DNA of 64,000 bases from Blepharisma japonicum (lineage: Eukaryota; Ciliophora; Heterotrichea; Heterotrichida; Blepharismidae): positions 1 to 64,000 of the forward strand of contig CATKHK010000135.1 of the NCBI GenBank assembly GCA_949751835.1. The letters are read 5' to 3'. Both the position numbers and the translations under genes were made by a program. The notes under the pieces are model-generated. The model made no database searches and was not told the DNA's origin. It worked only from the letters and a program-made list of their open reading frames with translations. Position 1 is the first letter of the stretch, and each line of letters opens with the position of its first letter. Of this stretch, positions 3,479-64,000 are shown piece after piece.

Positions 3479-4261
3479 TTAAAATAAATAGCAGAATGAT
3501 AGAGTAAAATAATATATCGAGCCATTATAATATGTATAAGGAGACAAATTTAGGTTCAGTAATGTATCATTATAATCACAAATAAAAGTTCACTCTGATA
3601 ATGGATCATCACAAAAATAAATTTTATTTCCATCTTCTGTTTGAGCAATCAAATAAAGCTTTCCTGATTTTTTTATCATCATTTGAAATATTGATCAATG
3701 CAATTTATTAATTGGAGAATGCTCGATGTATAAATCCAAATTTATATCATATATTACCATTTTGTAATCGTGCGAAATAATAATTAATTTTTGCTTAAAC
3801 CCAATGCATGAGTATATGTCAATATGCTTGTCAAGAAAATGAATTCAGCTATTTTGCGAAATTGAATATCTTTTAGCATGATGACTAATTGCTCGATTTC
3901 TAAAAGAACTATATGTTCTCTCGTAAATAAAAATCGAGTCTCCATAAAAGCATGACGATAAGCTGCGATTGGCATAAGGCTGAAAAGTTGATGTTTCTAT
4001 TATTTTTATATTGAAATATTCATCTAATATAAAAAGTTGCCATAAATTATTATATCGCCCCGAGCACTTAACCCCAAAAATTTTATTATTAGTAATCATC
4101 ATGCAGTTTATAAGACTTTCAGAAAATTGCTTAGAAAAATCAATTGTAAGGTCAACTAAGTTTATTCGATGTATAGTTTTATTTCCGTGAAAGACAAATA
4201 GATATTTTGATTTGACTTCATCTTGGTCAGCATCTTTGTCAACTATCTGACTTAATCTCAT
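3479..4261 (-). CDS. Kelch-like propeller protein Kp1 (DQNEIES family)
   Basis: 260 residues with three UGA Trp codons. The N-terminus is a variant of the family motif (DKDADQDEVKSKYLF). Propeller-strand signatures follow: NNKIFGVK, SCFYGDSIFIYE, RYSISQNSW, YSCIGFKQKLII, KSGKLYLIA, DDPLSEWTF and NGSIYYF. The protein stops shortly after the last of these, so the final LYEF-L strand of its relatives is missing or replaced by a short unrelated tail (TLSFCYLF). Closest neighbour is Kp2, upstream on the same strand. Function is unknown; Kelch propellers usually bind partner proteins. The shortened tail may be natural or early decay. Confidence 0.78.
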
Positions 4262-4577
4262 ATTTTATTAATATTACTACAATTTTGTTTACAAAGTAAA
4301 TGAAATTATTGTACTTATATATAGTTTTGATTACCTTAGCCAGAGCAAATAAAGTAAAGAACATCTGCACACATTAATGAGGAGATTGCCTTAAAATACT
4401 ATCACCATTGCAATGAAGACATTGAATTTATAAGCCGATCACTATAATAAAATAAAATAAATATAAAGCAGATGGCCAATGAATTTAAAATAAATTTTCA
4501 AATAAAATTATAAATTATTACAATAAAATAAATATATAATGCACTTCATGATTAAATATATATATTGAATAATGTGC
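4262..4577. other. Kp2-Kp1 spacer with a possible zinc-module remnant
   Basis: Holds the Kp1 promoter (minus strand). On the plus strand near 4390-4445 a short frame reads KYYHHCNEDIEFIS and then stops. This resembles the start of the B-box/Kelch proteins (KCWKDQCGNKLEFAC) with two cysteines lost. It is too short to be sure. Confidence 0.35.
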
Positions 4578-5405
4578 TTACATATACGTTTTAATATTAA
4601 TTTCTTTTGTTCTAAATGTATTTAAAGAAAACTCATAGTAATTTGGATATCTAAAATAATAAATTGAGTCATTATAATATGCATGAGGGAAAAAAACTGA
4701 CCCAAATAATTTCTCTCTATGATCACAAATAAAAGTCCACTCTGATAAAGGATCATCGCAACAGTAAATTATATATGCATCTATTGTTTGATTAATCAAA
4801 TAAAGCTTGCCTGATCTTTTTACCATCATTTGATTTATTGATGCATTCCCACTTATTAGAAAATGTTGGCTATAACTATTTGTAAACGTATCATACATTA
4901 TCATTTGAAGACCATGGGAAGCAATAATAATTTTTTGCTTAAACCCTATGCATGAGTATGGGTAAAAATGCAATCCAGGCAAATCAATCCACTTATTTCG
5001 TGATATTGAGTACTTTTTAGCATGACGACCTATCGTTCTTCCTTCATCAGAGTTAAATTCTTTTTCAAAAGTAAAAATCGAGTCATTATAAAAGCATGAG
5101 GATAAACAACGGTTGACAGAAGGCTTAGCTTGAATTGTTTCTATTGTTTTCATGTTAAAATATTCATCTAATATAAAAAGCTGCCGCATATTGCTGTCAG
5201 GTCCTCCAAGCTTAACACCAAAAATTTTATTATCTGTAATAGTCAGATAGTTTATCATAGGTATAGAAGACTGCTTGGAAAAGTCAATTGAAAGTTCAAC
5301 TAAATTAATTCGGTGTATTGCTTTATCTCTGCGAAAATTTCATATATGTTTGGATTCAATTTCATTTTGGTCTACTTCTTTATCAATTATCTGACCTAAT
5401 TTCAT
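4578..5405 (-). CDS. Kelch-like propeller protein Kp2 (DQNEIES family)
   Basis: 275 residues. I place the start at the ATG that opens the family motif (MKLGQIIDKEVDQNEIESK), 147 bases upstream of a later internal Met. One in-frame UGA is read as Trp right after that motif. The two Trp positions that many paralogues encode by UGA (NKW and SEW) use TGG here. Strands seen: NKIFGVK, LFILDEYFNMK, SCFYNDSIFTFE, YSCIGFKQKIIIAS, SGKLYLI, DDPLSEWTFICD and NDSIYYF, with a complete last strand ending YEFSLNTF. Divergently transcribed from Kp3 across a ~390-base spacer. Confidence 0.88.
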
Positions 5406-5795
5406 ATTTATCAATATAGGAGTGCACACCCTTGAATCAAGACAATTCCAAATCGATTAGATTATGCATGAGCTGGTCATATTAAGTTCAAGCAGATTTT
5501 TAAGTTATAATTGACTAAAATTTTACTTTTTAAATATTCAATTGCGATATAAAATATGATTCTAAAAAGCCTGGAATAGAAATTTTTAAACATTTTTTGT
5601 AACTGGAAAATTATTTTAATAAAGCAGGAATTAAAATATTGGATTTTATATAAAATTTTGAAAACTTAATCAGCTATGATCTAGCGTAAAGATAAGTACA
5701 AAAGATGATTCAGTCACTTAATTTTTATTTAAATATTCATCTAATCTAAAGTCTCTATAGTTATTAAAATATAAGAATCATGCTATTTATATAAA
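5406..5795. promoter_or_regulatory. Divergent promoter region Kp2/Kp3
   Basis: About 390 bases of AT-rich DNA between two divergent Kelch-like genes. It must hold both promoters. No defined motif beyond A/T runs before each ATG was recognised. Confidence 0.5.
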
Positions 5796-6665
5796 ATGAA
5801 AATAAGCCAAATAGTTGACAAAAAAATTGATCAAAATGAAATAGAATCAAAATACATATGATGCTATACATCGAGATCAATGAGCCAAATTAACTTATCA
5901 ACACTTGTTGCAGGTATTTCTTGAACATTTCTAGATGGTTTTTATATGATACCTTATATGGCACTTCCTAATGATCAAATATACGGGTTTGGAGTAAAAT
6001 CACGTTCAGAGGGTTTCCAATACGAGTTCATAATAGATGAAAATGCTAATATAAAAAGAATACAAATTCCTAAAACAATTAATAAATACTTTACAAACTT
6101 CTTCACCTCTTGTTACTATGAAGACTCAATTTTTACCTTCAAATACGGATCTGATTTTAACTATAAATGCATATCAAATTTAGCTAAAAGATACTCAATT
6201 TCGCAGGATAAGTGGATCAGTCTGTGTCCTTTACCTTTTAATTCTCCAGTTTCATGCATAGGATTCAACCAAAAAATTCTTATTTCTGCCAATGCTTCTG
6301 AAGCATCTGGATTATGAGTATATGACATAATTTTGGATTCTTATAGCCACAGCATCCTCAATAAAAAAATTGCACAAAATTGTCCCAGAAAAATGTTTAA
6401 AAGTAATGGAAAAGTTTATTGCATCATCTTTTATGAAATTTATGCCACTGAAGATCCTTTTTCAGAATGGATGCTGGTATATAACTACTTGGATCGCGTA
6501 TTAAATTTAAATTTTCCTATTAAAGTGCTTTATGAAGGATCAATTTACTATCTTAGAGATTCTTCATTTTTATATCAATTTAATTTATCAAAATTTACCC
6601 CAAAAGCAGTTGCAGACTTAAATAGTATATGCGCAAATGCAAAAAATCAAAAAATATTGCATTAA
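5796..6665 (+). CDS. Kelch-like propeller protein Kp3 (DQNEIES family)
   Basis: 289 residues with three UGA Trp codons (KYIW, ISW, GLW-VYD) beside two TGG (DKW, SEW). The frame is open from the family ATG at 5796 to TAA. Propeller landmarks: LPNDQIYGFG, SCYYEDSIFTFK, RYSISQDKW, SCIGFNQKILIS, VYDIILDSYS, SNGKVYCI, EDPFSEW and YEGSIYYLRD, ending with a YQFNLSKF strand and a 25-residue polar tail. The closest relative in the window is Kp4, 1.1 kb downstream beyond the HMG-box gene. A decayed minus-strand sequence near 19.3-19.9 kb is also close. Confidence 0.88.
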
Positions 6666-7047: not shown

Positions 7048-7353
7048 ATGGAAAAGGAAGCAGAAAAGCTAAAGGTGGCAAAAAGAGCAAGGAGGGTAAA
7101 GAAGAATCAACCAAAGAAGCCTAAATCTGCTTTTATGATCTTTTGCGATGATAGAAGAACAGCACTTAAAACAGAACAGCCTAATCTAATTACCAAAGAA
7201 TTATTAAGAATAATAGCAGAAGAATGGAAGATATTATCTGATTCAGATAAAGCGCCTTATCTTGAGCAATCAAATCAAGATAAAGAAAGATATTATTTAG
7301 AAAAGGCAAAGCAGCTTGCAGATGCTGAAGGAGAACATAAAAATGAAGGATAA
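7048..7353 (+). CDS. HMG-box DNA-binding protein (HMGB-type)
   Basis: 101 residues with no UGA codon. A basic N-terminal arm (residues 1-24) leads into one HMG box at ~25-92. The box opens with the PKKPKSAFMIFCDD core, has the central E-EWK-LSDSDKAPYLE segment, and continues through a DKERYYLEKAK helix. A short acidic tail follows. HMG boxes bend DNA non-specifically and act in chromatin in the nucleus. Length and layout fit small ciliate HMGB proteins. It is the only clearly conserved housekeeping-type gene in the left part and stands alone between Kp3 and Kp4. Confidence 0.93.
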   Translation: MEKEAEKLKVAKRARRVKKNQPKKPKSAFMIFCDDRRTALKTEQPNLITKELLRIIAEEWKILSDSDKAPYLEQSNQDKERYYLEKAKQLADAEGEHKNEG

Positions 7354-7772: not shown

Positions 7773-8624
7773 ATGAAAATAGGCCAATTTACTGATACAA
7801 AAGTTGATCAAAATGAAATTGAATCAAAATACCTTTGAAATTATACAGGATCTAAAGACATGAATCGAATTAACCTATCAACACTAACTCTAGATTTCTC
7901 TTGAAAATTTCCAGATGATTATTCTATGACTCCCTATATGGCCCTACCCAATAATCAAATTTATTGAATTGGGATTAAAATTAGTCCTAAGAGTCTTAAA
8001 TCTCAATTCATTATAGATAGAAATTCCAAAATAAAAGTAATACAAATTCAAAAAAATTACAAAAAACCTGACAAAGGCTTCTTTACCTCTTGCTATTATG
8101 AAAATTCAATTTTTACATTCGAATTTAGTTCTGATAATGCACACGCAACAAATTTAGTTAAAAGATACTTAATGCCACAAGATAAGTGGCTTAGCTTATG
8201 TCCTTTACCTTTCAAATCTCTAATTTCATGCATAGGATTTAATAAAAAAATTCTAATTTCTTCCAATTTTTATGGTAATTATTGAATATGAGTATATGAT
8301 ATACTTTTGGATTCTTATAGCAATGATATTCCTATTAATAATACCAGCTGTATAAAAAACATTAAAACAATGATTAAAAATGAAGGAAAAATTTATTTAA
8401 CTAGCTTTTTCGAAATTTATGTGACTGAAGATCCTTTGTCAGAATGAACTTTTGTATCATACTATGTAAATCAATTAGTTCATATAAGATTTTCACTTAA
8501 AGTGCTTTATGAAGGAGCAATTTATTACCTTAATAAAAATGATTGTTCTTTATATGAATTTAATTTGACAGATTTTACATCAAAGGCAGTTCTGGTAAAG
8601 ATTAAAGATAAACATAAAGTGTAA
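7773..8624 (+). CDS. Kelch-like propeller protein Kp4 (DQNEIES family)
   Basis: 283 residues, hidden under the standard code because six of seven Trp codons are UGA. Read by hand, the frame has no TAA or TAG from ATG 7773 to TAA 8622. The family motif (TKVDQNEIESKYLW) is followed by LPNNQIYW, SCYYENSIFTFE, RYLMPQDKW, SCIGFNKKILIS, IWVYDILLDSYS, NEGKIYLTS, EDPLSEWTF and YEGAIYYLN, with a last LYEFNL strand. It resembles Kp3 in the first half, and the pair probably arose by duplication around the HMG-box gene. Confidence 0.87.
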
Positions 8625-10091: not shown

Positions 10092-10913
10092 TTACTTAAA
10101 GCTAAGTTCTTTTCTTATAAAAGTATCTAAAGAAAATTCATAATAGTGTGGCTCTCTAAAATAATAAATCATGCCATTATTGCAAGCATAAGGAAAGTAG
10201 CACATTCCAAAAACTACGCCTTTATAGTTGCAAACAAAAGTTCAGTTTGATAAAGGATCGTCACAGCAGTAAATTTTATCACAATTTAGTCCCATGGAAA
10301 TCGAATAAAGCTTTCCTGATTTTTTTAAGATTATTTGCCATACTGCATCATACAAAATTTGAGAATGATGGCTATAAGAATCCAAAATTGTATCATATAT
10401 TATTATTTGAGGGCTATCTGAGGTAATAATAATTTTTTGATTAAATCCAATGCATGAGTATGAATACAAAGGTAAGCCAGACAAGTAAATTCATTTATCT
10501 TGTGAAATTAAATATCTTCTAGCGCGACAACTTATAATTTCGTTTTTATTTCTGATATTATATTCGCTTTCAAAAGTAAAAATCGAGTTATCATAAAAGC
10601 ATGAAGCTAAACAATGACCAATAGAAGGGTGAATCTGAGAAGTTTCTAGTATTTTCATGTTAAAAAACTCATCTGATATAAAAAGTTCACGGACTTTGTT
10701 GCTAGGAGTGGGGCATCCAAATCTTACCCCAAATATTTTTTCATCTGCTATCGTCAGATGGTAATAGATAGATTTTTGGGGTTGTACGAAAAAATCAATA
10801 TCTCGTGTAGATAAATTAACTCTTTGTGACGGTTGATAACAAAAATTTCATAAGTATTTTGCTTCAATTTCATTTTGGTCAATTTCTTTATCAACTATCC
10901 AACTTAGTTTCAT
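10092..10913 (-). CDS. Kelch-like propeller protein Kp5 (DQNEIES family)
   Basis: 273 residues with three UGA and two TGG Trp codons. Family motif DKEIDQNEIEAKYLW. The strands match Kp2 most closely: KIFGVRFG, LFISDEFFNMK, SCFYDNSIFTFE, RYLISQDKW, YSCIGFNQKIIITS, YDTILDSYSHH, KSGKLYSIS, DDPLSNWTFVC and YYFREPHYYEFSLDTF. Like Kp1 and Kp2 it is on the minus strand, which suggests these three descend from one inverted ancestor. The complete last strand shows what Kp1 has lost. Confidence 0.87.
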
Positions 10914-11523: not shown

Positions 11524-12341
11524 GCAATCCTTTGAGCCAGGTTGTACAGTCCATCACAAGATGCTGATAATCACCAAAATGCATCTCTTTATTATATTGA
11601 ATGTAATAATAAAAGAACAGATAAGAGATATAATTTATGAACTTATAACATTGATTGTAAAATCGAGCAAGCCATAATTTTGAAAAACCAAAATGGCATC
11701 AATGAAGACACTAGCATAACTCTGCTTCCAAATGGCAAATTTTTCTTTTTTAGTAGCTATTACTGCTCTTGTACAGCGCTGATAGTTGATAAGAATGGTC
11801 AATTTCAGCAATTACCATCTACATCTTCCCACTATTCCTCAGCAGTTATCTATTTCAAGAAAAGTGTCTATTGTTTTGGAGGATCATTTTATGGGGCTCT
11901 AGATTTATCTTCAAGATTTGATTTAGATAAAAATCGGTGAGCTCAATTGCCTCCATTGCCAATGTGCATTGAATGTTGCAATAGTGTAATCTGCGGTGAA
12001 AATATTTTGATTGCTGGAATTTTGAGTGAGAATATTTTTCTATATTCGATGGAGATTAAATCTTTAGACAATTCTTACGAGTTTGGATTGGATAAATCAA
12101 GCAAGATGATAATAAATTCAGACGAAAGACTGTATTTAATTGAATAGGTTGGTCTTTATGAAAGCGAAATTGAAAGCTACACTGATTGGAGACGAGTTGG
12201 AGACTCAAGAATTTTTATATGCCTGGTCAGGTTTCCTGGTCATATAATAAAGGGGATATATTCATTGTGTACAATTTCGGTGGAAGGAATATCAAATACT
12301 ACAAGTTTAATTTAGATGAAAAGAGATTGACTAAACTTTAA
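11524..12341 (+). pseudogene. Headless B-box/Kelch-type pseudogene
   Basis: A Kelch reading frame is open from 11524 but has no ATG. The text runs LPNGKFFFFSS, then ALIVDKNGQ, SAVIYFKKSVYCFGGSF, RFDLDKNRW-AQLPPLP and NSVICGENILIAG, then a TAG at 12145. Beyond the TAG the frame continues to about 12205 and then moves. The last blade (KGDIFIVYNFGG-RNIKYYKFNLDE) lies in another frame and ends at TAA 12339. It matches the propeller half of the proteins at 37.7 and 42.1 kb, more classical in its FGG and W-LPPLP signatures. The zinc finger is absent. Missing start, internal stop and frame change together point to a pseudogene. Confidence 0.7.
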
Positions 12342-12968: not shown

Positions 12969-13889
12969 ATGCTGCTTAGCTTTAAAGAATATAAAGCTGA
13001 TCAAAGCCAAATTGTATCACAATATCAATGGTATATCAATTGCAGCTCATTTCCAGCATCAATAAACCGTATTAACCTTTCCTCACTTGAAATCGATTTT
13101 TCTTGAGAATTCCCAACTCAAATTTCAGTTGAAATCCTTATGATTCTTCCAAATAATCACATTTTTGGACAAATATTTGATAATGATCTCTTGGATCGTC
13201 AACACTTATTCATATCAGACGAAAAATTTTCAAAAATCAAGATAATAGAAACTGCTATAATAAATAACTCTATTCGCAGTGAAATTTGTGCTTGCTTTTA
13301 TGATGACTCAATATTTGCAATAGAAAAAGATGTAGATTTTGTGCGTGGAGATAGATTTCCCCCAGAACTTAAAAGATACTTAATTTATCAAGATATGTGA
13401 GTTCATTTACCACGCTTGCCCTTTAATTATCCAAATTCATGCATAGGATTTAACCAACAAATTATTATAATTGGGGAAGCCCCTGGATTATGAATTTATG
13501 ACATAACTTTGAGTTCTTATAGTCATCATTTACCGATTAGAAAATTTGAGAAAAAAGCTAACCAAATGCTCTTTAAGTATGAGAGAAAGCTTTATTTACT
13601 AATTTTTTCAAGCTTGAATGGAATTTACTGCTGTGATAATCCTTTATCAGAGTGAATTCTATTGTTGCGCATAAAAAAAAATATTTGCCTTAGACCAATT
13701 TCTATTAATAAAATTGGTCCCTCGCATTATGAAGGGTCTTATTATTATCTTAAAGAATCAATTATAGTTAAATTTGATCTTTCCAATTTTAAAACAGAAG
13801 CAATTGGTAACTATAAAACCTTATATTCAACTCATATAAATACTTTAAAAATTATGATTATACGTCTAAATATTTTTGGAATATTATAA
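12969..13889 (+). CDS. Kelch-like propeller protein Kp6 (DQNEIES family)
   Basis: 306 residues, the longest complete member, with four UGA and one TGG Trp codons. The N-terminus is diverged (MLLSFKEYKADQSQIVSQYQW), keeping only the spacing of the family motif before RINLSSLEIDFSW. The propeller is typical: LPNNHIFGQIF, LFISDEKF, ACFYDDSIFAIE, RYLIYQDMW, SCIGFNQQIIIIG, IYDITLSSYS, YERKLYLL, DNPLSEW and HYEGSYYYLKES. The tail after the last strand is long, hydrophobic and unlike that of relatives. Confidence 0.85.
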
Positions 13890-14157: not shown

Positions 14158-14991
14158 ATGAAGCTAAGTCAAATCGTTGACAAAGAAGTTGAACAGAATG
14201 AAATCGAGTCAAAATACATATGATACCCTGCTTTAAGAGGTATAAACCGAATCAATCTATCAGCATTTGCAATTGACTGTTTTGTTTCACTCCCAAATTC
14301 TATTTCCATTACTCATTGCATGCCACTTCCTAATAACCAAATCTATGGCATAGGATTCGAAAATTTTGGGAAGCACCATCAATGTCAATTCATATCTGAT
14401 GAAAATTTAAACATAAAAATAATAGAAATTTCAGCAAAAAATGCATATAATCATAGCTATTTTGCTCGCTATTATGATGGGTCGATTTTTACATTTGAGC
14501 GTACGATTACAACTTGCCGAGCACAAAGATATTTAATTTCACAAAATAAATGAATCCAAATGTATAATTTGCCCTTCAAATTCCCAGTTTCTGTCATAGG
14601 GTTCAACCAAAAATTACTGATTACTGTGGATAACTCTGAGCTTTACGGGATATGAGTTTATGATATAAATTTAGATAATTATAGCCACTTTACAGTTAGT
14701 AATTTCTATAAAAAGGCTTGCAAAACAGTCTTTAAATATGAAGCAAAGATTTATTTGGTGACTTTTCGAGAATTTTATGAAATTTATGTTACTGATAATA
14801 TTTTATCAGAATGAACTTTTGTAAGTGAATGCAAAGAAAATAAGTTTTTTTGGCAATTTTGTCCTAATGTTTTATATGATAAGTCTATTTATTATCTTAG
14901 AGATTTAACTTTATACAAATTTGAGTTGATGAATTTCGAATTAAAAGCAGTCGCAAAATTAAATGGCACAAGTGTTAATGAGATAATTTAA
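14158..14991 (+). CDS. Kelch-like propeller protein Kp7 (DQNEIES family)
   Basis: 277 residues with four UGA and one TGG Trp codons. Motif QIVDKEVEQNEIESKYIW. Landmarks: LPNNQIYGIG, QFISDENLNIK, ARYYDGSIFTFE, RYLISQNKW, VIGFNQKLLITV, GIWVYDINLDNYS, YEAKIYLVTF, DNILSEWTF, YDKSIYYLRD and a LYKFELMNF end. The blade-2 cysteine of the SCFY signature is changed to Arg. The final ~75 bases and the 3' flank are duplicated near 19.99 kb next to the second RAP-like gene, which marks the left border of a large duplication. Confidence 0.87.
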
Positions 14992-15275: not shown

Positions 15276-18200
15276 TTAAATTGTAAAAAATTGCCTAATA
15301 CCTCCAACTTCTATCTTATTTGTCTGGTCTTCATTAAGAATAATCAAGTCTTTTAACTTTTGTTGCATCTGAGTTCTATGCATTGCAAATTCTCCTCTAG
15401 CAATTTTTGAACGATATAGAAGTATGGAATTAGTCACAGGCCATATAGCTGCTTTTGTGCTTGGAATGTAAAAAGGTATCCAAACTCCATCAAGAAATGT
15501 TCCAGCTTTTACTTCAAGATTTTCTTTATTTAATGATGATTTAATAAGACTGATAAGGGGTGCATCAATTCCAAAGTGCTTAAAATAGTCAAAATCATGC
15601 ATATACTGCAGAGTATTTTGCTTTAAAAACCTTATTCCTTTATAATCTGGGTCCATCTTAAAATGATTTCCAAGTAAAAAGTGCTTAAAAGTTGGCACTT
15701 CGCACTCAAAATATTTACTATTTTCTATGTTTCTCATAATAATTGATTTATTTGCTTTAAAAGCAACAAGCCCGTATATTCAATTGATATATTCTAAATC
15801 GCTTTCAAAAGTTATATATTTATCCTCTGCATAATCTATAAGCTTATTAGCCAATTTGTTGGCCCATATTGCTTTTTCAAATCTCAATTCTGCTAAACAT
15901 GAAATAGTTTCTGCCAAATAAGCTGATCTGAGGTTATCTTCTTTATTGCAAATAGATAAAACTGCATCTCTGCTAGATAATCCTACAGATTTAATTTTTT
16001 CAATAAGTTTTTCTCTACGAAATTCTCTATTTTGAAGTTTGATCATTTTTTGACTTTTTCGAATCAAATCTCCAATATCAAAATCTATAGGTAATTGATT
16101 TTGAGCAAAACTAAGCAAGCTTGTAAGGTGAGTGAACAATAGTCTATCAGCATTGGCTAAAACCATTTTTTTTGCTAGGGCCATCATAGCATTAAATAAA
16201 TCTAAATGCTTATTGATATTAATTCCTGAAAGCTTATTAATCGCCAATGTTATAAATCAAATACCATCCATATCTTGAGCTGGGACCATTTTTTTCAATA
16301 AATCTATAATATAATCATCAATTTCTTTAGTTTCTGGATGATACCAATATCTATAGAGAAGCGGAGAAAGATTACTAAGATCTAAATTTTCATTGAAAAC
16401 CCTTTTTATCATTTTTTCTCTTAGCTTTGAATCGCTGCATTTTGAAGAAATAATTAGCATACTTCATTCATCAAATATGCTCATGTAGTCACAGTTAGAT
16501 ATTATAAGCTCAGCCAGTTCTGGTGTTAACTTGCCAAGAATAGACGCAAAGCTAACAATTTTGATATTTTGATTCCTGAAAATATAATCTATAGGCAGGT
16601 CTTTTAGTAACTCGCATGCACCAGCAAATAATTCTGATAGTAAACTTGCATCAGAATTGTTGAAAATATAATTAAATGATTCAGCTTGTGAAAAAATCAT
16701 AGGATCATTTAATAAATAATAAGGGTCTATTTTGTTTAAGATTCGAGCAAAATCATTTATAACTTGAGAGTCTTGCACTTCATAAATTCTTTGCAATGCA
16801 ATACCTATTCAATTCGGAGCAAGCTTTTTTTTATACGTTTGCAGCAAAAAGATAATTGCCTCGAAGGGACCTTTATAATACCTTATTGCGTTAGAAATTG
16901 CTGTAATCGAAAAATTATTTTTATTTTCAATTAAAAATTCTCTCCATTTTTCAGTATCAGATTCATAAAAATATATTGATCTCAATAAACTAAATTCTTG
17001 ATCTAGCTGTAATTTCAATAAACTAAAAATTGTAGATTGTAATGGCTTTAAAGTTTTAATAAGTAAAGAGTTATATTCTCTATTCTTCGCTTCATGATAA
17101 AGCTTTTCAAAATTTAGGGCATCTAATGGGAGTCACATTTTTAGGTAGTCTATAATAAGATCTTTTTGTCTCTGTAGATTATAAAGATTGCTCTTTGTTA
17201 ATATAATATTAAACAATAAATTTATTTTGTCCTGCTCCATAAGTTCAATTTTGTTTGAAATTAAATCTATGAAAGGAAAAAGCTTCCCTTCCTTATTCAC
17301 AGATATCAATGAAGCCTTTTGTAAAATTTCAGAAAATCTTTCTTGACGACACCTGCTTACTTGGTTGGCTAATGTGATTGCAATTTCATAATCCATTGTT
17401 GGATTCATAGCATCAATTAATTTTATCTTATATTTATAGCTTATTGGCCCTAATTGAAGTTTCTTTGTAATTATTTTTAAGCTCTTTGAAACTATTTCAT
17501 CCTCAATTGGATTATGTCCTATATCTTTTTTTAAAAGAGAAACCAATTCGATTGCAAATTCTATAGGTTGATCATTGTTAAGTGAACTATTGACCATCTC
17601 TAAAGCTCTGGAAAACGTGCCTAAATAGATATTGCGATGATTTTCATAAAACTTTAGTATTGAAAGCAAATCATTCTCTTTCCACCTTGGCAACGTCTTT
17701 TCAATTGCAATAGCAAAATTGTTTAAATAATCGTTTACATGAGAGTAGGTTGGAATAGCCAAAGCATCAAAAATTTTAGCTAAGTATTTCACATCATGCT
17801 TTTCTTTTAAATTCAAGAATTTGTCAATGCAAATGAAAAATCAAAATTTGTTTTGTGTATAAATAAATTTACCGCATCCTGTTAAAATTTGAGAAATTTC
17901 CTTCAAAGTTAATGGAGTATTAGTAATTTTGTCAATTTCAATATCTAGATCTTCTATTTTAATACTTCGAGGCGTCAAACTTTCATGAATTGCTAAAATT
18001 TGTGCTCGATTTCATGAGCGATTCTTTAGAAACTCATTTATGCGTGAAATCAATATTTCTTTTTTTTCTATCGATAAATATGCTTCCTTTCCGAATAACC
18101 CAGACTTTGTAATCCACTCACAAAAATTGATGATGCTATGGGGATCAAGTTTATCCAAATTATTCATAACTTCATCTCGGATTTCAAATAATTTGCATCT

Positions 18201-19885: not shown

Positions 19886-19984
19886 TTTAGTGCTTTAAAA
19901 ACAAATTTATCAATTATATGTATCAAGAAAAACACCTTAATAATTTATACTTTTATATGTTAAGCAATTTTATACGATATCGAG

Positions 19985-38911: not shown

Positions 38912-39037
38912 TAGATTAATAACTAAAGCTAAACTTAGCGATTAACTAGCAATATTTTAAAATTTGGATTTTATACCACAGATTATAACTTTATCATGAT
39001 TCGCAAGGCCTATTAATTTTGGACATTAACTTATAAA
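38912..39037. other. Spacer BK1-BK2
   Basis: 126 bases. The last part is a diverged copy of the leader of BK1 (attaacttataaaat). Confidence 0.4.
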
Positions 39038-52024: not shown

Positions 52025-52897
52025 ATGAAACTTTGGCAAAAAATTGACAAGCTTATTGACCTAAATGAAATTGAGTCTAACTATATATTAAGCATACAAG
52101 AAAACTTGGTGAGAAGAATTAATTTATCCTCACTTGAAATTGAATTTTCTCAAATTTTACCAAATCCAATTTCTTTTCCTAAAATCATTCCATTCCCTGA
52201 TAAAAAAGTATTTGTATCAGGTATAAACAATAGCGGAGCAGAAAAAAGTGTTCAATATTTCGTGATGTCAGAAGATGACTTTAGCATAAAAGAAATAGCT
52301 CCACCTCTATGCGAGGAATCTTCTGCTGCTCGCGATCTCACTCTTGGCATCTGCTTTTATGATGATTCAATTTTTATATTAAAGGATTATAGAACATCCA
52401 AGCACATAAAAGTTCGCCAACCTATGTTATTTAATAGATATTGCATCTCGCAAGACAGATGGACCAAATTGTGTCCCCTGCCTTCTGGATTCTTAGCATC
52501 ATGCATTGGATTTGATCAAAAAATCATCATTACTGGGCCTGATCCTGGGCTATTAGTTTATGATATAATTTTGGATTCTTATAGTCGGTTTTGCACTAAT
52601 ATTTTTAATAGCGAGCAACCAACATTTTTATTCAAAAAATCTGGAAAGCTTTACCTATTAACTTTATCAATGCCATATAGAATTTACTCTTGTGATGGCG
52701 TTTTATCCAAGTGAACTTTTCTGCTTGAGACTTCTCGTACAATATGAGAACAAGGATGGTTCTACGACAGATCTTATATAGTAATTCGCGAAGGATCAAT
52801 TTATTACCTTAGGCACTGAGCTTTATACGAATTCGACCTTAAAAAGTTAAAATCAAACAAAATACAGTCTTATCATGAGAGCGTAACTAAAATTTAG
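52025..52897 (+). CDS. Kelch-like propeller protein Kp17 (DQNEIES family)
   Basis: 290 residues, stop TAG, with three UGA and three TGG Trp codons. Tandem copy of Kp16, 215 bases downstream. Differences gather in the N-terminal third (WQKIDKLIDLNEIESNYILS) and in the loops before RYCISQDRW, while the blade-3 DNA is almost the same. The last blade has IREGSIYYLRH-W-ALYEFDL with UGA. The upstream in-frame ATG (MYNIN prefix) is present here too, so a five-residue longer protein cannot be excluded for either copy. Confidence 0.88.
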
Positions 52898-52980: not shown

Positions 52981-53871
52981 ATGAGATTACGCCAAATATT
53001 CGATGATGCAATTGACCAAAATGAAATTGAATCAAAATACCTATGATATCGCCTTAGTAGCTACCCACCCATATCCGTGAATCGGCTTGATCTCTCTACA
53101 CTTACAATTGATCTTTCCCAAACCTTATCAGATCTTATCTACATTAAGCACTGTCAGCCTCTTCCAAATAACAAAGTTTTTGGTCTTAGTATAGATTGAT
53201 CAGTATTAGAGTTTGATCCCCAGTACCTTTTCATATCAGATGATAATTTCAAAATTAAAGCTCTTGAGCCGCCACATAACGAAGAAATTTACGCGCATAA
53301 TTCAGTCATTACAGTCTCATGCTTTTACAATAATTCAATTTTTCTTTATGAGCATGACTGAGACTCTCCTCAAGTGGATGGTAGCTGCCTTCATTGATTT
53401 GGAAAATTTGATACCTTGCAAAAGAGATGGACTAAACTAACACCTCTTCCTTTCACTTTTCCAACTTCATTTGTAGGCTATAATCAAAAAATCCTTATTG
53501 TTGGGGATACACTTGGAATATTAGTGTATGATATAATTTTGGATTCTTATAGTAAATTTTGTATGGATAAATTTAATGAAGACCCACCAAAGATGCTTAT
53601 AAAAAATGATGGGAAAATTTATTTGATAAGTTTATCGCAACCATATTGAATTTATTCTTGTGATGGTAATTTATTAGATTGGACTTTACTTTTTAAATCA
53701 GAAGTTCCACTGTTTAATGATTTCAAATATCAATTTGGTTTAGAGATGTCTAATTATCTTTATTATGTGTACTATGAAGGCTCTATTTATTTTCCTAGTG
53801 AATACTCTTTATTTAGATTTGATTTGAAAGAGCTAAAACTAAGAAAAATTAAGGACCTTAATAAGAACTAA
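52981..53871 (+). CDS. Kelch-like propeller protein Kp18 (DQNEIES family)
   Basis: 296 residues with five UGA and two TGG Trp codons, only 83 bases after Kp17. Motif MRLRQIFDDAIDQNEIESKY. It stands between subgroups: LPNNKVFGLSID and FISDDNFKIK recall Kp9, while VGDTLGILVYDIILDSYS recalls Kp16. The blade-2 signature is SCFYNNSIFLYE. There is a longer loop before the last blade (about 8 residues more than in Kp9). Ends YFPSEYSLFRFDLKEL. Confidence 0.88.
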
Positions 53872-54555: not shown

Positions 54556-54715
54556 CTATTGATAAAGCTAGATCATAACGAGGTTGAATCAAAATACTTA
54601 TGGAATCATCCTAAAATTATATCAATCAGCTATATAAACAGAGTTAATCTGTTCTCTGGCAATTGATTTTTCTCAGAACTTACCAAATATCATTTACACT
54701 CTACACAATTTGTGA
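54556..54715 (+). pseudogene. Fragment of a Kelch-like gene 5' end
   Basis: Plus-strand bases read the family start in shifting frames: gataaagct..gatcataacgag, gttgaatcaaaatactta, tggaatcat, then aacagagttaatct and attgatttttctca. These match the DKA-DQNE-VESKYLW ... RINL ... IDFS section of family members. The fragment ends just before Kp19, so Kp19 may have landed in an older gene. Confidence 0.6.
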
Positions 54716-54736
54716 AAAGTGTTGATTAAAAATAAT

Positions 54737-55534
54737 ATGAAGTTAAACCAAATATTTGATCCAAAATTAGATCAAAACGACATCGAAGAGCAATATATAT
54801 GGAGTCTTGAGAAGATAGCGATATCTAAAAACATACTTCGAATTAATTTGTCAACTTTAAAGATAAATCGTTCTTTTAAGAAGTCATACTTATCTCAAAT
54901 GTATATCACTCACTATACAGCTCTACCAAATAATCAATTTTTTGGGCGATTTATATTAGAAAATCAAGGTATATCTTATCTATTTATATCAGATGAAAAT
55001 TCAGACATAAAAATAATAGAAACTAAAGAAGAAGCCCATGGTGCTACATATACTTTTGCCTCTTGCTTTTATGATGACTCAATTTATGTTTTTAGAGATA
55101 AAAGATGTGCTAAAAGATATATAATGCCAGAAAATAGATGAATAAGCTTAACAAATATCCGAGCCATCCCAAAATCATGCATTGGATTCAACCAAAAAAT
55201 TTTAATAACTGATTATGATTCGAATATTTTATTATATGATATTATGTTAGATTCCTATAGTAATGATTTGCCACTTGCAAGAGACGATGGGCAAATAATG
55301 GTTAAGCACGAAGGGAAAATTTATTCAATTGGTTTAAATTGTTTTAAATCGATAAAATATTGCTTTGGTCCTTTTTCAGATTGAAATTCAGTACGCTTTT
55401 CTTATAAGAAAGAAGTTGACTTTAATTTGTGTTTTTATGTGTATTTGAAAGGATCAATTTATTATCTTAAATATAGAGCTTTATATAAGTTTTCACTGAA
55501 GACATTTAAAGAAAAAATCTTGATAGCTATTTAA
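54737..55534 (+). CDS. Kelch-like propeller protein Kp19 (DQNEIES family)
   Basis: 265 residues with two UGA and one TGG Trp codons. An ATG 18 bases upstream is in frame, but the family motif (MKLNQIFDPKLDQNDIEEQY) starts at 54737 and the twin gene Kp21 has no such extension. Here DQNEIES becomes DQNDIEE. Landmarks: LPNNQFFGRF, LFISDENSDIK, SCFYDDSIYVFR, RYIMPENRW, SCIGFNQKILIT, LYDIMLDSYS, HEGKIYSIG, FGPFSDWNS and LKGSIYYLK. Among the shortest complete members, with a smaller blade 2. Confidence 0.87.
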
Positions 55535-56440
55535 ATAATAAAGATAGAAATTATTTAAATTTACTAAGCATAAACCTTAAATTGCATGGTTAATGTCATC
55601 TAGCACATCAAAATTTTAATAAGTCTCCCCTAATAATACTTTTATTAGGGAAGCAAGTAGTTCTATCTAAAATTTATCTATCACATCATTCTTAGCATAG
55701 TGTTTCTAGTTAGCTCATTCACGTTCTTCCATTGATGTAACTTATCATTACATCTTTTTCTATGATCCGAATTTCATTCCTTTAAAATTTTTCCTGAACA
55801 GATTGCGTTTAAATTTTCAAAAAAACTATTCTTTTGAAATAGTAAAAGCTCTACAGATGCATATGGATGCATGCTGTGCATCATTGGATTTTATCATTAT
55901 TATCATCTTCAAATTATGAGATAAATATCATACAGGTAAATAGCGACCAATTAATAATTCTAGTGAAAATAAATTTGACAAGTCAAAATAAATAAAAAAT
56001 TTAGGAAGCACTAGAATGCAATGATTAATGTTAAGCAATCTTAGGGCATTTACTAAAAGTTAAATTCTATTTATTTTAATAAATTTTTAGTCTACTATAT
56101 TTTCTTAATTATGAATTTAACCCCCCATTTCTACTCAAGAGAAAAAATATACTTTTTGATAAGTTTTATGGTCTTATTTTAATTAATTGCATAAAATTAA
56201 AAGAGAAATAACAAATTTTTATCATTATAAAGTATCTAAAATTTATCTTATCATCCTTAGCATAGAGTTTTTGATTTACTAATTATCTTCTTCCATTGAT
56301 GCATCTTATCTTTATACCTATTTCTATAATGCGAATTTTATTCCTTTAAATTTTTGTTTAATAGATTGTGCAAAAAAATAATATGGAATTTTATATTTTT
56401 CAAATATTCAAAAAGTGCAATTCAACAGATACATATGGAT
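55535..56440. other. 3' flank of Kp19
   Basis: About 900 non-coding AT-rich bases, matched by 61078-61980. It contains an inverted repeat near 55625-55655 (ctcccctaataat and attaggg-ag) that is kept in the other copy (61169-61197). Confidence 0.5.
55624..55656. terminator. Stem-loop after Kp19, kept after Kp21
   Basis: tcccctaataat and attattaggg-like arms (cccctaata / tattagggg minus one base) flank a short loop with acttt. It lies ~95 bases after the stop in both duplicates. Terminator or 3'-end role is an inference; it may be conserved only by recent duplication. Confidence 0.3.
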
Positions 56441-56830
56441 TTATGCTCAGCACAATTTGATTTTATATAATCATATATTAAAACGGCGAGAGCTCCAGTT
56501 TGACTTTATCTTATACAAATTTTTTTCATTTTCATCAAGAATACAGCCACAGCTAAATAAAGGAGTTGGAGCTAAAAAGAGTAATATATCTGATATCATC
56601 TGTGAGTAATAAAGCCAAAAATCAAGCATAAGTAAAATCCTTAATAGGCATGTTGTCATTCCGAGATAAATTAGCCGCATAATTTTCCTCATCTTTCACC
56701 CACCTTTTTGTTTGGGCTTAATTATGCACCCGGCTAAAAATAAGAAGACAATACTAAATTCTGATACTAAAATACTGATAACTACAAAGTCGAGCCTTGA
56801 TTCTCGGTCTTTCCAATCATTATCAATTTA
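56441..56830 (-). pseudogene. Fragment of a multi-pass membrane protein gene
   Basis: The minus strand is open for ~129 codons (stop TAA at 56441). Two or three hydrophobic segments are visible: FVVISILVSEFSIVFLFLAG, a basic loop KPKQKGGW-KMRKIMR, then LGMTTCLLRILLMLDFWLYY and ILLFLAPTPLFSC. The first ATG is internal at 56692, and the open part upstream lacks a start. It borders the end of the Kp19 duplication at ~56475. The topology might fit a TOM1/THH1-type seven-helix protein, but similarity is too weak to claim. Probably a gene truncated by rearrangement. Confidence 0.4.
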
Positions 56831-57798: not shown

Positions 57799-58638
57799 CT
57801 AAGTTGATTTCATAATATTGAATTCTACTTCTAATATATATATCTCATATATTTTTAATAATATTAATAAAAGGGTAAGATAGTAAATAGATCCACCAAA
57901 GTACACTCGATGAGTAGGTCTATAGCAAAACAAATTTTCTTTGAACTCACAAATAAAGTCTCACTCCGATAAAGGATTTTCACAGCTATAAGTTCTATAA
58001 AATGTCGAAAGAATTATCATATAAATCTTGCCTTTACATTTTGCCATCATAGAACCTTCTCCTTCGTCATAATTTTTTATTGGAAAATGATGGCTATAAG
58101 AATCCAAAATTAAATCATATATATATATTCCTTCTTTCCCAGGTGCTTCGGTAGAAATAATGATTTTCTGATTGAGCCCAATACAATTGACTGGATGCTC
58201 AAATAGGGAAGCACACAAATAGATTCACTTATTTTCTTTAATCAAATACCTTTTAGCACGGCGATTTACGCATTTTGTAGACCAATGAGAACTATACTCG
58301 AATTTAAAAATTGAATCATCATAAAAGCATGCACAATTAGAGATATGCTTAATAAAGGCTTTTTCTGGAAGATGCTTTATTTTTTTTATTTTAAATTTTG
58401 GGTCTGATATGAATGAGTAGCAATCTCCAAAAGATTGATTCATTACCCCATAAAAGTAATCTTCTGGGATAGCTATTGTTTCGATGACCACTTGATAATA
58501 GTCTAATGTTAAACAAAGGTCAACTGTAAAAGTAAGCAAATCAATTCGGTTCATACCTTGTGGTGCTCTATATCAAATGTATCTAGATTCAATTTCACTC
58601 TTATCAACCTCTTTATCAATTATTCTGCTTATTTTCAT
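57799..58638 (-). CDS. Kelch-like propeller protein Kp20 (DQNEIES family)
   Basis: 279 residues, stop TAG, with three UGA Trp codons. Start is the ATG of the motif DKEVDKSEIESRYIW, 84 bases upstream of an internal Met. Strands: IPEDYFYGVM, FISDPKFKIK, ACFYDDSIFKFE, RYLIKENKW, NCIGLNQKIIIS, IYIYDLILDSYSHH, CKGKIYMII, CENPLSEW and FGGSIYYL. After this the sequence departs from relatives: a hydrophobic TLLLILLKIYEI tail in place of the LYEF-L strand, as in Kp1. A late frame change may have created this tail, yet the rest is intact. Confidence 0.78.
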
Positions 58639-59334: not shown

Positions 59335-59600
59335 CTTTTTGACTCGATTATTATAACCTCATGCTTTTATGATAACTTAATATTTATTTTTGAGTATGAC
59401 CAAGAAGTTTATCAGACAAATAGTAGTAGCCTTCATTGATTTAAAAGGCATTCTCTATTACAAAGCAGGTGGGTTACACTAGGAATCTCGCCTTTCATTT
59501 ATCCAATTTCATACATTTGCTTTAATCAAAAGTCTGGATGTTGATGAAAGTTCAGAAGTATAGACAGACATATGATATAATTCTTGATTCATACAGTCTT
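59335..59600 (+). pseudogene. Kelch-like gene fragment (middle blades)
   Basis: Plus-strand text: SCFYDNLIFIFEYDQEVYQ, then SLHWFKRHSLLQSRWVTLG, PISYICFNQK, later in another frame a YDIILDSYSL equivalent. This equals blades 2-3 of a Kp9/Kp18-like protein. Both ends of the gene are missing and frames break near 59540. Confidence 0.7.
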
Positions 59601-60145
59601 AGAACCTATAGATTACTTGGAGTGTTTAAAGTATTGACCGGCTCCGCAGAGTGATTAAATAAGTCACATGGACTTACCAAGTAAAAACCAAACTAGTGAT
59701 TTCACTGGGCATTCCTCATTACACTTTTCAGATTGAAGGACCATCTAAGTAAATTACGACTAACCTGATCACCACAGAGCTCACAAGACTTGCTGCCTTA
59801 GCACTATAAATCCAGAGTATATATCAAAGGGTAGTTAATGGCTCATCATGTAATAAAAATTAAAAATTTGTAGCATGAGTTTTGTTTTAAGCAGAAGGAT
59901 AGATTTTTAACAAAGCAATTCCAATTTGCTATGAATATTAGCACTTAGATATGCTCAAGACACGAAGACTTGAAAGACGCCGTCGAAATCCGAATACCTG
60001 AAGCCAAGCGACTATTTAGATAAAGACCAGATTATTTAAGACGTAAGATCGGCAGGCATTGAATCAGGAGAGGAAGCCCATATAGGTAACGCGATATTGG
60101 ACGTTAAAGCAAGATTAACCATAATATAGTTTGATGTTAAAAAAG
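59600..60145. other. GC-richer unexplained segment
   Basis: About 540 bases clearly less AT-rich than the DNA on either side, with strings such as gacgccgtcgaaatccgaat and gcgatattggacg. The plus frame from 59953 is protein-like (LKPSDYLDKDQII, DVRSAGIESGEEAHIGNAIL) but is crossed by TAA and TAG, which are stops in all other genes here. It starts where a Kelch fragment ends. Not recognised as rRNA, tRNA, SRP or spliceosomal RNA. Confidence 0.45.
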
Positions 60146-60279
60146 TAATTTTTACTGTGCAAAATGATATGAAAGAATAACAGTATACTTTCATGATTAA
60201 TAAATAAAATATTGTTAAATAAAAAAAATATAAATTTTGGTAAAGATTAATAGAAAATATAAGTCAACTTGCAATAAAT
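60146..60279. promoter_or_regulatory. Leader region of Kp21
   Basis: AT-rich. It does not match the DNA before Kp19, so the two twin genes have unrelated promoters and may be expressed differently. Confidence 0.4.
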
Positions 60280-61077
60280 ATGAAGTTAAATCAAATATTT
60301 GATCCAAAATTAGATCAAAACGACATTGAAGAGCAATATATATGGAGTCTTAAGAAGAGAGCAGTATCTGAAAACATACTTCGAATTAATTTGTCAACTT
60401 TAAAGATAAATCGTTCTTTTGAAAATTCATACTTATCTCAAATTTTTATCACTCACTATATAGCTCTACCAAATAATCAATTTTTTGGGCGATTTATATT
60501 AGAAAATCAAGGTATAGCTTATCTATTTATATCAGATGAAAATTCAGACATAAAAATAATAGAAACTAAAGAAGAAGCCTATGGTGCTTCATATACTTTT
60601 GCCTCTTGCTTTTATGATGGCTCAATTTATGTTTTTAGAGATAAAAGATGTGCTAAAAGATATATAATGCCAGAAAATAGATGAATAAGCTTAACAAATA
60701 TCCGAGCCATCCCAAAATCATGCATTGGATTCAACCAAAAAATTTTAATAACTGATTTTGATTCGAATATTTTATTATATGATATTACATTAGATTCCTA
60801 TAGTAATCATTTGCCACTTGCAAGAGACTATGGGCAAATAATGGTTAAGCACGAAGGGAAAATTTATTCGATTGATTTAAATTGTTTTAAATCAATAAAA
60901 TATTGCTTTGATCCGTTTTCAGATTGAAATTCAATACGTTTTTCATATAAGAAAGAAGTTGACTTTAATTTTTGTTATCATGTGTATTTGAAAGGATCAA
61001 TTTATTATCTTAAAAATAGAACTTTATATGAGTTTTCACTGAATACATTTAAAGAAAAAGTCTTGAAAGCTATTTAA
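60280..61077 (+). CDS. Kelch-like propeller protein Kp21 (DQNEIES family)
   Basis: 265 residues, twin of Kp19, with the same two UGA Trp positions. Over the first 134 codons I count 13 codons with amino-acid changes and 3 silent ones relative to Kp19. Changes cluster at residues ~25-34 (LKKRAVSEN for LEKIAISKN) and ~47-56 (ENSYLSQIF for KKSYLSQMY). Blade 2 has SCFYDGSIYVFR, with Asp changed to Gly in a signature that is otherwise very stable. The frame is complete to TAA. Confidence 0.88.
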
Positions 61078-62015
61078 ATAATAAAGATAGAAATTATTTA
61101 AATTTACTAAGAATAAACCTTCAATTGCATGGTTAATGTCATCTAGCACATCAAAATTTTAATAAATCTCCCCTAATAATACTTTTATTAGGGAAGTAAC
61201 TAGCTCTATCTAAAATTTATCTATCACATCATTCTTAGCATAGTGTTTCTAGTTAGCTCATTCACGTTCTTCCATTGATGTAACTTATCATTACATCTTT
61301 TTCTATGATCCGAATTTCATTCCTTAAAATTTTTCCCGAACAGATTGTGTTTAAATTTTCAAAAAAACTATTCTTTTGAAATAGTAAAAGCTCTACAGAT
61401 GCATATGGGTGCATGCTGTGCATCATTAGATTTTATCATTATTATCATCTTCAAATCATGAGATAAATATCATACAGGTAAATAGCGACCAATTAATAAT
61501 TCTAGTGAAAATAAATTTGACAAGTCAAAATAAATAAAAAATTTAGGAAGCACTAGAATGCAATGATTAATGTTAAGCAATCTTAGGGCATTTACTAAAA
61601 GTTAAATTCTATTTATTTTAATAAATTTTTAGTCTACTATATTTTCTTAATTATGAATTTAACCCCCATTTCTACTCAAGAGAAAAAATATACTTTTTGA
61701 TAAGTTTTAGAGTCTTATTTTAATTAATTGCATAAAATTAAAGGAGAAATAGCAACTTTTTATCATTATAAAGTATCTAAAATCTATCTTATCATCCTTA
61801 GCATAGAGTTTTTTGATTTACTAATTATCTTCTTCTATTGATGCATCTTATATTTATACCTACTTCTATAAATGCGAATTGTATTCCTTTAAATTTTTGT
61901 TTAATAGATTGTGCAAAAAACTAATATGGAATTTTATATTTTTCAAATATGCAAAAAGTGCAATTCAACAGATACATATGAATTTATGCTCTCCACAATT
62001 TGATTTTATATTATC
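60280..62015 (+). repeat. 1.7 kb duplication, copy 2 (Kp21 and 3' flank)
   Basis: Partner of 54737-56475. Beyond ~62015 it continues into sequence not found after copy 1. Confidence 0.85.
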
Positions 62016-62358
62016 ATCAAATTATGGGGTAATTATCATACAGATAAATAGATACCAATTAAAAATACAACAAAATAAACTTGACAAATCAAAATAAAAA
62101 AAATTAGGAAATGCTAGTTGGGAATAAGTTAAATGTCTCTTATTTTATTAAATATTTTAGTCTACTATATTTTAATTAAGTCTAATATCGATTTTCTACT
62201 CAATAAGTTTTAAGTTTTAAAGATTATTAATTGCATAAAATTAAAGAAAAAGTTGCAATTTAGTTTTTGTTAATTTAAAATACTAGACATCTAATAAATT
62301 AATCTTCATAAAGGCAGAATCATTTTGTATTCAGATTAGCTATTTAATAATAAAAAGC
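61078..62358. other. 3' flank of Kp21 and spacer to Kp22
   Basis: The first ~900 bases are the duplicated flank. The next ~340 bases (62015-62358) contain shortened echoes of the same flank (gacaaatcaaaataaaaaaa, ttttagtctactatatttt), so an older duplication underlies it. Confidence 0.5.
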
Positions 62359-63177
62359 ATGGAGTCAGGCCAAATATTTGATCCAGAAGGAGATCAAAAT
62401 GACGTTGAATCGCAATACCTATGGAATCTAAAATGCAGAAGGGATAACGAAAAATTATTTCGAATTAATCTGGCTACATTAAAGATTAACTACTCTTTTT
62501 CAAAATCTAGATTATCTCAAATTATTATCACTAATTGAAATGCTCTTCCAAATAATCAGATTTTTGGCAGATATGAAGAAAAAGACCAAGATATGTCGTA
62601 TCTATTTATAGCAGACGAAAATGCCAACATCAAAATAATAAAATCTGCTTCATTACGCTCTGATAAATATGCTTTCTTTGTCTCTTGCTATTATGATGAC
62701 TCAATTTTCATCATTGCCAATGGAGGACATGCTGAAAGATATTTAATATCACAAAATAGATGAATCAATTTGACTAAATTCCCATCTCGCTTCGATAGTC
62801 CAAAGTCATGTATTGGATTCGAACAAAAAATTCTTATTTCTAAACAATCTAATCCTGGATTATGAGTATATGATATTATTTTAGATTCCTATAGTGACAT
62901 TAATGCTCTTAAAGGGGATGAACGGGTATGAATGATTAAAGATTCAGGAATTATTTATGCACTAGATTTAAGTTATTCCACAACAATAAAATATTGTTGG
63001 AATCCTTTTTCAAAGTGGAGATATGTTAATTATTGCGATGAACTTAAAGCTGACTTTGATTATACACCTTTTGCATATTTTTATGGATCAATTTATTATC
63101 TTAGAGATGATATTTTATATGAATATTCGTTAGAAACGTTTACGTCAAGAATAGCGAAAGTCATTCCAAAATTCTAA
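62359..63177 (+). CDS. Kelch-like propeller protein Kp22 (DQNEIES family)
   Basis: 272 residues with four UGA Trp codons and several TGG. Related to Kp19 and Kp21 at the start (QIFDPEGDQNDVESQYLW) but with its own loops. Strands: LPNNQIFGRYEEK, LFIADENANIK, SCYYDDSIFIIA, RYLISQNRW, SCIGFEQKILIS, GLWVYDIILDSYS, DSGIIYALD, WNPFSKWRY and FYGSIYYLRDD, ending LYEYSLETF. An N-terminal MESG replaces the usual MKL. Older member of the Kp19 subgroup. Confidence 0.87.
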
Positions 63178-63733
63178 TAGATTCTAAATTAACTAGGGAA
63201 TTAATAAGAAAGCTTTTTATAAAAGTTTTGATATTAAATTTTGAATCGAAAAATATGAAAATTCAAGGTCATTATAGAATTTCTCAAGTCAGATTTTTCA
63301 CTACCCTAAAACATTGTAGCTTAATATGCAAAAGCTCTGATACATATTATAAAATCCAATCAATTTTCATAAAGTAAGGTATCCTTAATGATAAAATATA
63401 CGATATGGATATTTTTAAAATCATTAAAACTTTAGAAATAAAAAAATTTATTTACTACTAAAATTAACAAATATAACTAGATTAATTATAAAAAAATGTT
63501 TTTTACTAATTTAAACAAATTAAAAATAAATTTAGATAAAAATATCTAAGCTAATAAGTTTTAGTTTTTCAGAATTATTAATCAGTCTAATTTTAAAGAC
63601 TTGCATAAAATTGATAATGTTTTTGACGTTATGAATAGAAAAATTAGATGTTTAATCAAGGAAATGAATTAACCAGTTCAGAAGCTTAAATTTCATAAAA
63701 TCATTAATATAAGTGCAAAATCTAATAATAAAT
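63178..63733. other. Spacer Kp22-Kp23
   Basis: About 555 AT-rich bases with the Kp23 leader (aataataaat before ATG) at the end. No other feature. Confidence 0.4.
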
Positions 63734-64000
63734 ATGAAGTTGAGTCAAATTATTGATTCAGAGCAAGATCAAAATGGCATTGAATCTCAATTCCTGTGGA
63801 ATCTTAATCGCCACTGAAATGAATCAAAATTTATGCGAATTAATCTCCGTGAATTGAAAGTCAATTTTTCTTTTTCAAAATCTCGATTATCTCAAATTGA
63901 GATCACAAAATGAATGGCTCTTCCGAATAATCAGATTTTGGGCACATATGAAGAAAAAGACCAAGATAAGTCGTATCTATTTATAGCAAACGAAAATGGC
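63734..64000 (+). CDS. Kelch-like propeller protein Kp23, cut by window end
   Basis: First 89 codons only. MKLSQIIDSEQDQNGIESQF starts it, then LWNLNRHW (UGA), RINLRELKVNFSFSKSRLSQ, a second UGA, ALPNNQILGTYEEKDQDKSY and LFIANEN. The YEEKDQD-SYLFIA part is nearly the same as in Kp22, so the two are tandem copies. No stop occurs in the visible part. Confidence 0.85.

Follow-up and report, generated by a model that had tools for sequence, protein, structure and literature searches.

The 64-kb window analysed here (the whole stretch, positions 1 to 64,000 of contig CATKHK010000135.1 of the ciliate Blepharisma japonicum, called C135 below) carries an array of small genes whose predicted products are Kelch-like propellers. 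The new feature of this family, as read from sequence, is that one predicted face, formed by the BC and DA loops, is hypervariable while the opposite AB/CD face and the N-terminus are constrained. We consider it probable, at roughly 60%, that the family is an intracellular recognition repertoire acting in a manner like that of the finTRIM genes of teleost fish. Such a repertoire would comprise a lineage-specific set of stand-alone, probably cytosolic Kelch propellers, related to the zinc-finger/coiled-coil/Kelch genes at the same locus (BK), and the family grows through tandem duplication of gene-plus-flank units. The BC/DA face is hypervariable and the scaffold that carries it is conserved, with constraint on the opposite face and the N-terminus; the variable face would bind a different or fast-changing ligand in each copy, and the constrained face or the N-terminus may engage a shared partner, possibly the multidomain relatives.

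In a Kelch propeller, the BC and DA loops lie on one face and the AB and CD turns on the other. Among 48 copies (open reading frames, ORFs, of at least 240 aa from a subset of genome-matched loci, shorter ORFs being left out), pairwise identity averages only 0.14 for BC loops and 0.16 for DA loops. It is higher everywhere else, with averages of 0.52 (AB/CD turns), 0.44 (strands), 0.49 (residues 1-10) and 0.68 (residues 11-18); the difference between BC+DA and AB/CD gives p 1e-13. An earlier interpretation of the window, made from the letters alone and here called the sequence-only reading, held that the first ~22 residues are often better kept than the propeller loops, and this is borne out: no other 22-residue stretch is kept as well (mean identity 0.59, rank 1 of 267), and the next separate one lies in the blade 4 region (0.57). 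For Plasmodium K13, BC and DA positions are reported as the best conserved in the blades, and the BC/DA pocket is likened to the substrate-binding pocket of KEAP1 and KLHL3 (PMC6650413). The order of conservation is reversed in the small copies, which vary most on the BC/DA face.

By curated models the small copies are not Kelch proteins, as the Pfam Kelch cut-off is reached by none of the 22 complete copies in the window (best Kelch E 0.15), and their profile matches no PDB chain at E<=1. However, a profile-profile alignment of the small copies with 12 zinc-finger-Kelch relatives starts at residue 11 and spans the whole propeller (probability 99.7, E 4.7e-27), and 11 of these 12 relatives match Pfam Kelch_1. 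Because of this whole-propeller match, the small copies are classed on sequence grounds as divergent relatives of Kelch propellers, with six predicted blades each. The profile of the relatives in turn matches Kelch chains in the PDB with E down to 7e-30, including KLHL20, Keap1 and designed SAKe6 propellers; the best chain shows six repeat matches. RING, F-box and BTB domains are absent from the eight Pfam families matched by any of the 22 copies at E<=1. A crude hydropathy scan found no N-terminal hydrophobic stretch in any of 49 copies (the 48 plus the copy cut by the window edge, which was added for this and later analyses), and a 19-residue window above 1.6 anywhere in the protein in only four. 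The sequence-only reading had listed these same domains, together with signal peptides and transmembrane segments, as missing, and the Pfam scan supports it for RING, F-box and BTB.

Selection was assessed by counting in 13 disjoint pairs, chosen by total core distance. Nonsynonymous and synonymous differences stand at 413:87 in the BC+DA loops and 438:205 in strands, turns and the N-terminal class taken together (Fisher p 2e-8), and the corresponding rate ratio, omega, is 1.08 in BC loops, 1.50 in DA loops, 0.56 in strands, 0.38 in turns and 0.20 in residues 1-18. Site models were then fitted, with repeated starts and with gapped columns dropped, to six subclades that together hold 28 of the 49 copies. 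Model M2a was preferred over M1a in c7 (p 7e-6), c4b (p 1e-4) and c14158 (p 0.017), and the results for c7 and c4b survive correction for six tests. When loop codons were analysed alone, the preference was retained in c7 (p 0.0012). Pooled over the six subclades, codons with a posterior above 0.5 make up 60 of 402 BC/DA codons and 37 of 956 strand codons, with 0 of 108 in the N-terminal class and 0 of 171 in AB/CD (BC/DA vs AB/CD, p 2e-10, the turns being an imperfect control, as short stretches that the fold may hold in place). The class of codons above 1 is clearly concentrated in the BC/DA loops, which agrees with the variable binding faces that the sequence-only reading had predicted.

The zinc-finger-Kelch relatives vary on the same face. 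We extracted 19 of them, of which 18 were used in pair tests and 12 in the final site models; branch lengths in the site models and in the held-out tests were scaled from FastTree and left unoptimised. For the 12 relatives the selection model is favoured whether all codons are used (p 2e-27) or just those of the loops (p 9e-9). In the whole-protein run, 13 of the 14 high-posterior sites fall in labelled BC/DA loops (208, 253, 269, 273, 274, 299, 300, 315, 316, 342, 357, 358 and 382), and the remaining site is 391. Every DA loop that joins two adjacent blades contains such sites, as do BC loops 3, 4 and 5; BC loops 1, 2 and 6 contain none. Counting in nine disjoint pairs of relatives gives omega 0.37 for the zinc head, 0.60 for the linker, 0.33 for strands and 1.07 for loops.

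Several results weigh against a recognition repertoire, and many of them would be expected if the loops were simply relaxed, with duplicates arising and decaying through array turnover and no ligand-driven selection. With their own synonymous scale, the loops average an omega of about 1 or less: the value is 1.10 in the 13 pairs, not different from 1, and comparing the loop counts with the neutral site ratio gives p 0.056. Over the six subclades the same measure runs from 0.36 to 1.38 and is never significantly above 1; in c14158 it is significantly below 1. Loop omegas of 1.43 (13 pairs) and 2.98 (seven recent pairs), obtained with a shared rate, were rejected because the pairs had been picked by low synonymous divergence, which biases that test; the excess vanished once pairs were re-picked by core distance and loops were given a separate rate. 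Among the site models, c14158 fails the correction for six tests, with an unrealistic fitted omega of 259, and c5, c4 and c3 give no significant signal. Loop codons alone are not significant in the five subclades other than c7 (p 0.11 to 1), and non-loop codons alone also favour M2a in c7 (p 0.049) and c4b (p 0.011), as they favour the selection model in the relatives (p 1.8e-5). Recombination, which can inflate site models, is signalled by a home-made PHI-type test in c4b, c5 and c14158 (p 0.02-0.05) and in the relatives (p 0.002); c7 gave no signal (p 0.11), the test having covered these four subclades. In a held-out design, where sites were learnt in part of the relative pairs and counted in the remainder, the ratio of nonsynonymous to synonymous differences per site (pN/pS) was 1.05-1.65, in the right direction and significant in none of four splits. 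To these must be added that strand, loop and blade boundaries come from motif and profile reading rather than from a structure, and that it is mainly the blade 3 region that yields the Pfam and PDB Kelch matches of the relatives. Relaxed turnover would also fit the presence of fragments and broken copies in the array. Nevertheless, we regard relaxed turnover as a doubtful account of the family. Strands, AB/CD turns and the N-terminus are under purifying selection (omega ~0.2-0.56), so the proteins are in use; the loop-only site model is significant both in c7 and in the relatives; and the corresponding loops of Plasmodium K13 are reported as the best-conserved blade positions (PMC6650413).

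The relatives differ from the small copies in carrying an N-terminal head of ~170 residues. Eight Cys/His residues are invariant in these heads, which look B-box-like by eye only, and the name coiled coil for the linker was likewise given by eye. No Pfam zf-B_box match is listed for the 12 relatives, and RING is absent from the families listed for them at E<=0.01. The BK head is homologous to that of a TPR gene in the window (profile score 92 bits over residues 5-157), and one head therefore carries either TPR or Kelch ends. Genome searches found at least 103 stretches matching BK (100 of 1317 candidates scored) and at least 150 whose head resembles the one in the TPR gene (150 of 577 scored), some of these stretches being pieces of one gene. 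Six other Kelch-bearing proteins of the genome were also scanned, and two of them carry RING, B-box and Kelch. These two proteins have Pfam support, and their genes are thus TRIM-like ciliate genes that end in Kelch.

A broader proposal, which we offer tentatively as a possibility, is that Blepharisma-type ciliates keep an intracellular innate recognition repertoire, immune or self/non-self, built from Kelch propellers. In it, naked propellers would work beside zinc-finger/coiled-coil receptors that bear a head and end in Kelch or TPR, and pathogens or invading genetic elements would drive the diversification of the propellers' BC/DA face. The small copies might instead be decoys that compete with the zinc-finger-Kelch genes for ligands, or that join them in mixed assemblies. 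End-to-end alignment of the two propellers, their presence in one array and their variation on the same face would all suit this idea, but long branches part the two kinds in the tree (midpoint root, with a long-branch warning from the program), and present copies therefore do not track present relatives; we think it unlikely. Least probable of all is that each propeller recruits one of the cell's own proteins for turnover, as a ubiquitin-ligase substrate receptor of the BTB-Kelch sort, since, despite the binding face shared with Keap1 and KLHL3 and the RING/B-box/Kelch genes noted above, Pfam shows neither BTB nor F-box nor RING in the small copies, and the face reported as a conserved patch in K13 and the BTB-Kelch proteins of PMC6650413 is here the part that varies most.

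The sequence-only reading had also taken the 22-residue motif at the start of the protein for a separate docking or localisation signal. This is not supported for the motif as a whole. The DQNEIES stretch runs straight into the first strand in the profile alignment with the zinc-finger-Kelch relatives, which begins at residue 11, and two distant relatives read DQTEIVFFR and ETNEIVFFR at the same position. DQNEIE thus falls where the chain enters blade 1, and the idea of a stand-alone docking tag is not supported. Residues 1-10 lie outside the propeller alignment and belong to a constrained segment (residues 1-18, omega 0.20 by counting in the 13 pairs), so a docking role is possible for them.

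The genome searched (45.19 Mb, 224 contigs) contains 168 exact matches to three consecutive units of CCCTAACA, with none for the reversed control, and the listed runs sit at contig starts, or at contig ends where the end position is known. It also reads TGA as Trp. As PMC9942806 reports this telomere repeat and TGA=Trp for the 41-Mb genome of Blepharisma stoltei, this is a Blepharisma-type macronuclear genome. A search with copy K07 gave 74 matches, 51 of them near-full-length at E below 1e-27, distributed as 26 on C135, 17 on C18, two each on C99 and C15, and one each on C22, C128, C17 and C158. TAA or TAG occurs inside the matched stretch in eight of the 51, in some cases merely as the terminal stop. 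Three more distant matches lie on C20, C57 and C98. Back-translated DQNEIE occurs 27 times in the genome (reversed control, 1). The motif is restricted to the small Kelch family in this genome, since 25 of the 27 occurrences are in the 51 matches; of the other two, one belongs to a broken C99 copy and one lies immediately 5' of a fragment matched on C18. All 48 copies tested fall in one clade (support 99/99), so the description of the genes as one family stands. Pattern and tblastn scans found no relatives in viral and prokaryotic contigs. We found no paper on this family in a literature search that lacked most subscription journals and bioRxiv, and the words kelch and B-box are absent from the main text of PMC9942806.

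The sequence-only reading spoke of births and deaths at one locus, and gene-sized repeats, fragments and broken copies are all present. The units of duplication are a gene plus its flank, seen as direct repeats of 1.6-1.9 kb with 88-96% DNA identity. Examples are 31908-33765 and 33839-35698 (94%), 54731-56480 and 60273-62024 (96%) and, among the BK relatives, 37389-38987 and 41851-43448 (89%). When the genome-wide matches were sorted by hand into 13 family clusters, seven of these proved to be no more than 15 kb from a contig end, where 15% would be expected (p 0.0012); the clusters may genuinely be subtelomeric, or the assembly may have broken at repeats.

The count of 22 complete genes, one edge-cut copy and six fragments given by the sequence-only reading was recovered with ORFs under code 4 and tblastn, two of the fragments being weak. 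Each of the 22 intact genes is a single ORF of 260-306 aa when TGA is read as Trp, and all end in TAA or TAG. Those on the minus strand are K01 (3479-4261, 260 aa), K02 (4578-5405, 275 aa), K05 (10092-10913, 273 aa) and K20 (57799-58638, 279 aa). On the plus strand, the left part of the array holds K03 (5796-6665, 289 aa), K04 (7773-8624, 283 aa), K06 (12969-13889, 306 aa, with the diverged motif DQSQIVSQYQW), K07 (14158-14991, 277 aa, the query of the genome search) and K08 (28238-29089, 283 aa). Subclade c7 follows with K09 (29520-30371, 283 aa), K10 (30535-31398) and K11 (32480-33343), both of 287 aa, then K12 (34411-35271), K13 (44735-45595) and K14 (46349-47209), each of 286 aa, and K15 (49024-49890, 288 aa), which served as the reference for blade numbering; all are on the plus strand, as are the remaining copies K16 (50940-51809, 289 aa), K17 (52025-52897, 290 aa), K18 (52981-53871, 296 aa), K19 (54737-55534, 265 aa), K21 (60280-61077, 265 aa) and K22 (62359-63177, 272 aa). 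The edge copy (63734-64000, plus strand) continues past the window as an intact ORF of 269 aa.

Fragments were taken as tblastn matches outside annotated genes, and comprise six of the small family and two that best match the zinc-finger-Kelch type. The former are a broken copy with matches in two frames, 65% like K03 (19333-19862, minus strand), and, on the plus strand, a K07-like 3' fragment (19958-20059), a short K08-like fragment (24141-24266, weak, E 0.001), a 3' fragment 83% like K10 (43922-44008), a K12-like 5' fragment (54568-54678, weak, E 0.0008) and a K18-like central fragment from the blade 3 region (59341-59645). The latter, also on the plus strand, are a broken BK copy with matches in two frames (39038-39864) and a distant BK-like propeller fragment, 29% like BK1 and without a Pfam match (11713-12249).

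The small genes had been said to fill the window, which overstates their share: the 22 ORFs cover 29% of it, and genes of other kinds lie between them. BK1 (37652-38911, 419 aa) and BK2 (42110-43372, 420 aa), both on the plus strand, consist of a zinc-finger-like head, a linker and a Kelch propeller. The TPR gene (1664-3139, plus strand) has the BK-homologous head, with TPR repeats where BK has its propeller, and contains an internal direct repeat (2305-2924 and 2509-3128, 89%). Three paralogs of another kind, each of ~1050 aa, lie on the minus strand at 15276-18419, 20355-23531 and 24618-27785. They share a basic MLRLRF...SRS start that resembles a mitochondrial targeting sequence by eye, and a Pfam scan of the whole proteins and of their C-terminal parts gave nothing near significance; they may be RAP or OPR-like RNA-binding proteins. 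A short ORF at 7048-7350 (plus strand) looks by eye like an HMG-box protein. No RNA families were found in the window, nor any tRNAs (ARAGORN, bacterial code).

C135 is 75,423 bases long and the small Kelch array continues beyond the window up to the contig end, with three further near-full-length matches besides the edge copy and the start of another copy that the end cuts off. The tail of the contig also includes two blocks of 1.3 and 1.2 kb that recur, at 92% and 91% identity, within the first 4.6 kb of C18; the two arrays may be linked, a block may have been copied, or the copies may be allelic.

As a recognition repertoire, the family would offer candidate receptors with named loop residues for studying how a single-celled predator distinguishes invaders, symbionts and self in its cytoplasm, and its variable binding face contrasts with the conserved face described for Plasmodium K13. 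The homologous system is the BK set, which shares the propeller, the locus and the variable face of the small copies, but carries its head, does not begin with MKLxQIxDK and has no DQNEIES version of the first strand. BTB-Kelch adaptors such as Keap1 and KLHL20, together with K13, share the Kelch propeller and its BC/DA binding face (PMC6650413), and the Keap1 and KLHL20 chains are matched by the profile of the zinc-finger-Kelch relatives, mainly in blade 3. The small family differs from them in lacking BTB, in forming a large tandem array and in having BC/DA as its most variable rather than most conserved part. The finTRIM genes are reported to form clusters with a near-identical RING/B-box head and to show positive selection in the recognition domain (PMC2657112). 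With finTRIM and mammalian TRIM5alpha the present family shares clustered lineage-specific expansion, and the positive selection reported in their C-terminal recognition domain is paralleled here by site-model signals in three of six subclades and in the relatives, though not by loop averages or held-out counts. The BK relatives add a further likeness, a head more conserved than the loops (omega 0.37 against 1.07). The recognition domain is B30.2 in finTRIM and a Kelch propeller here, no RING was found in these copies, and the small copies are wholly headless. The small family is not a TRIM member, because tests for RING and the Pfam B-box found neither; by analogy, finTRIM is its nearest counterpart in evolutionary behaviour.

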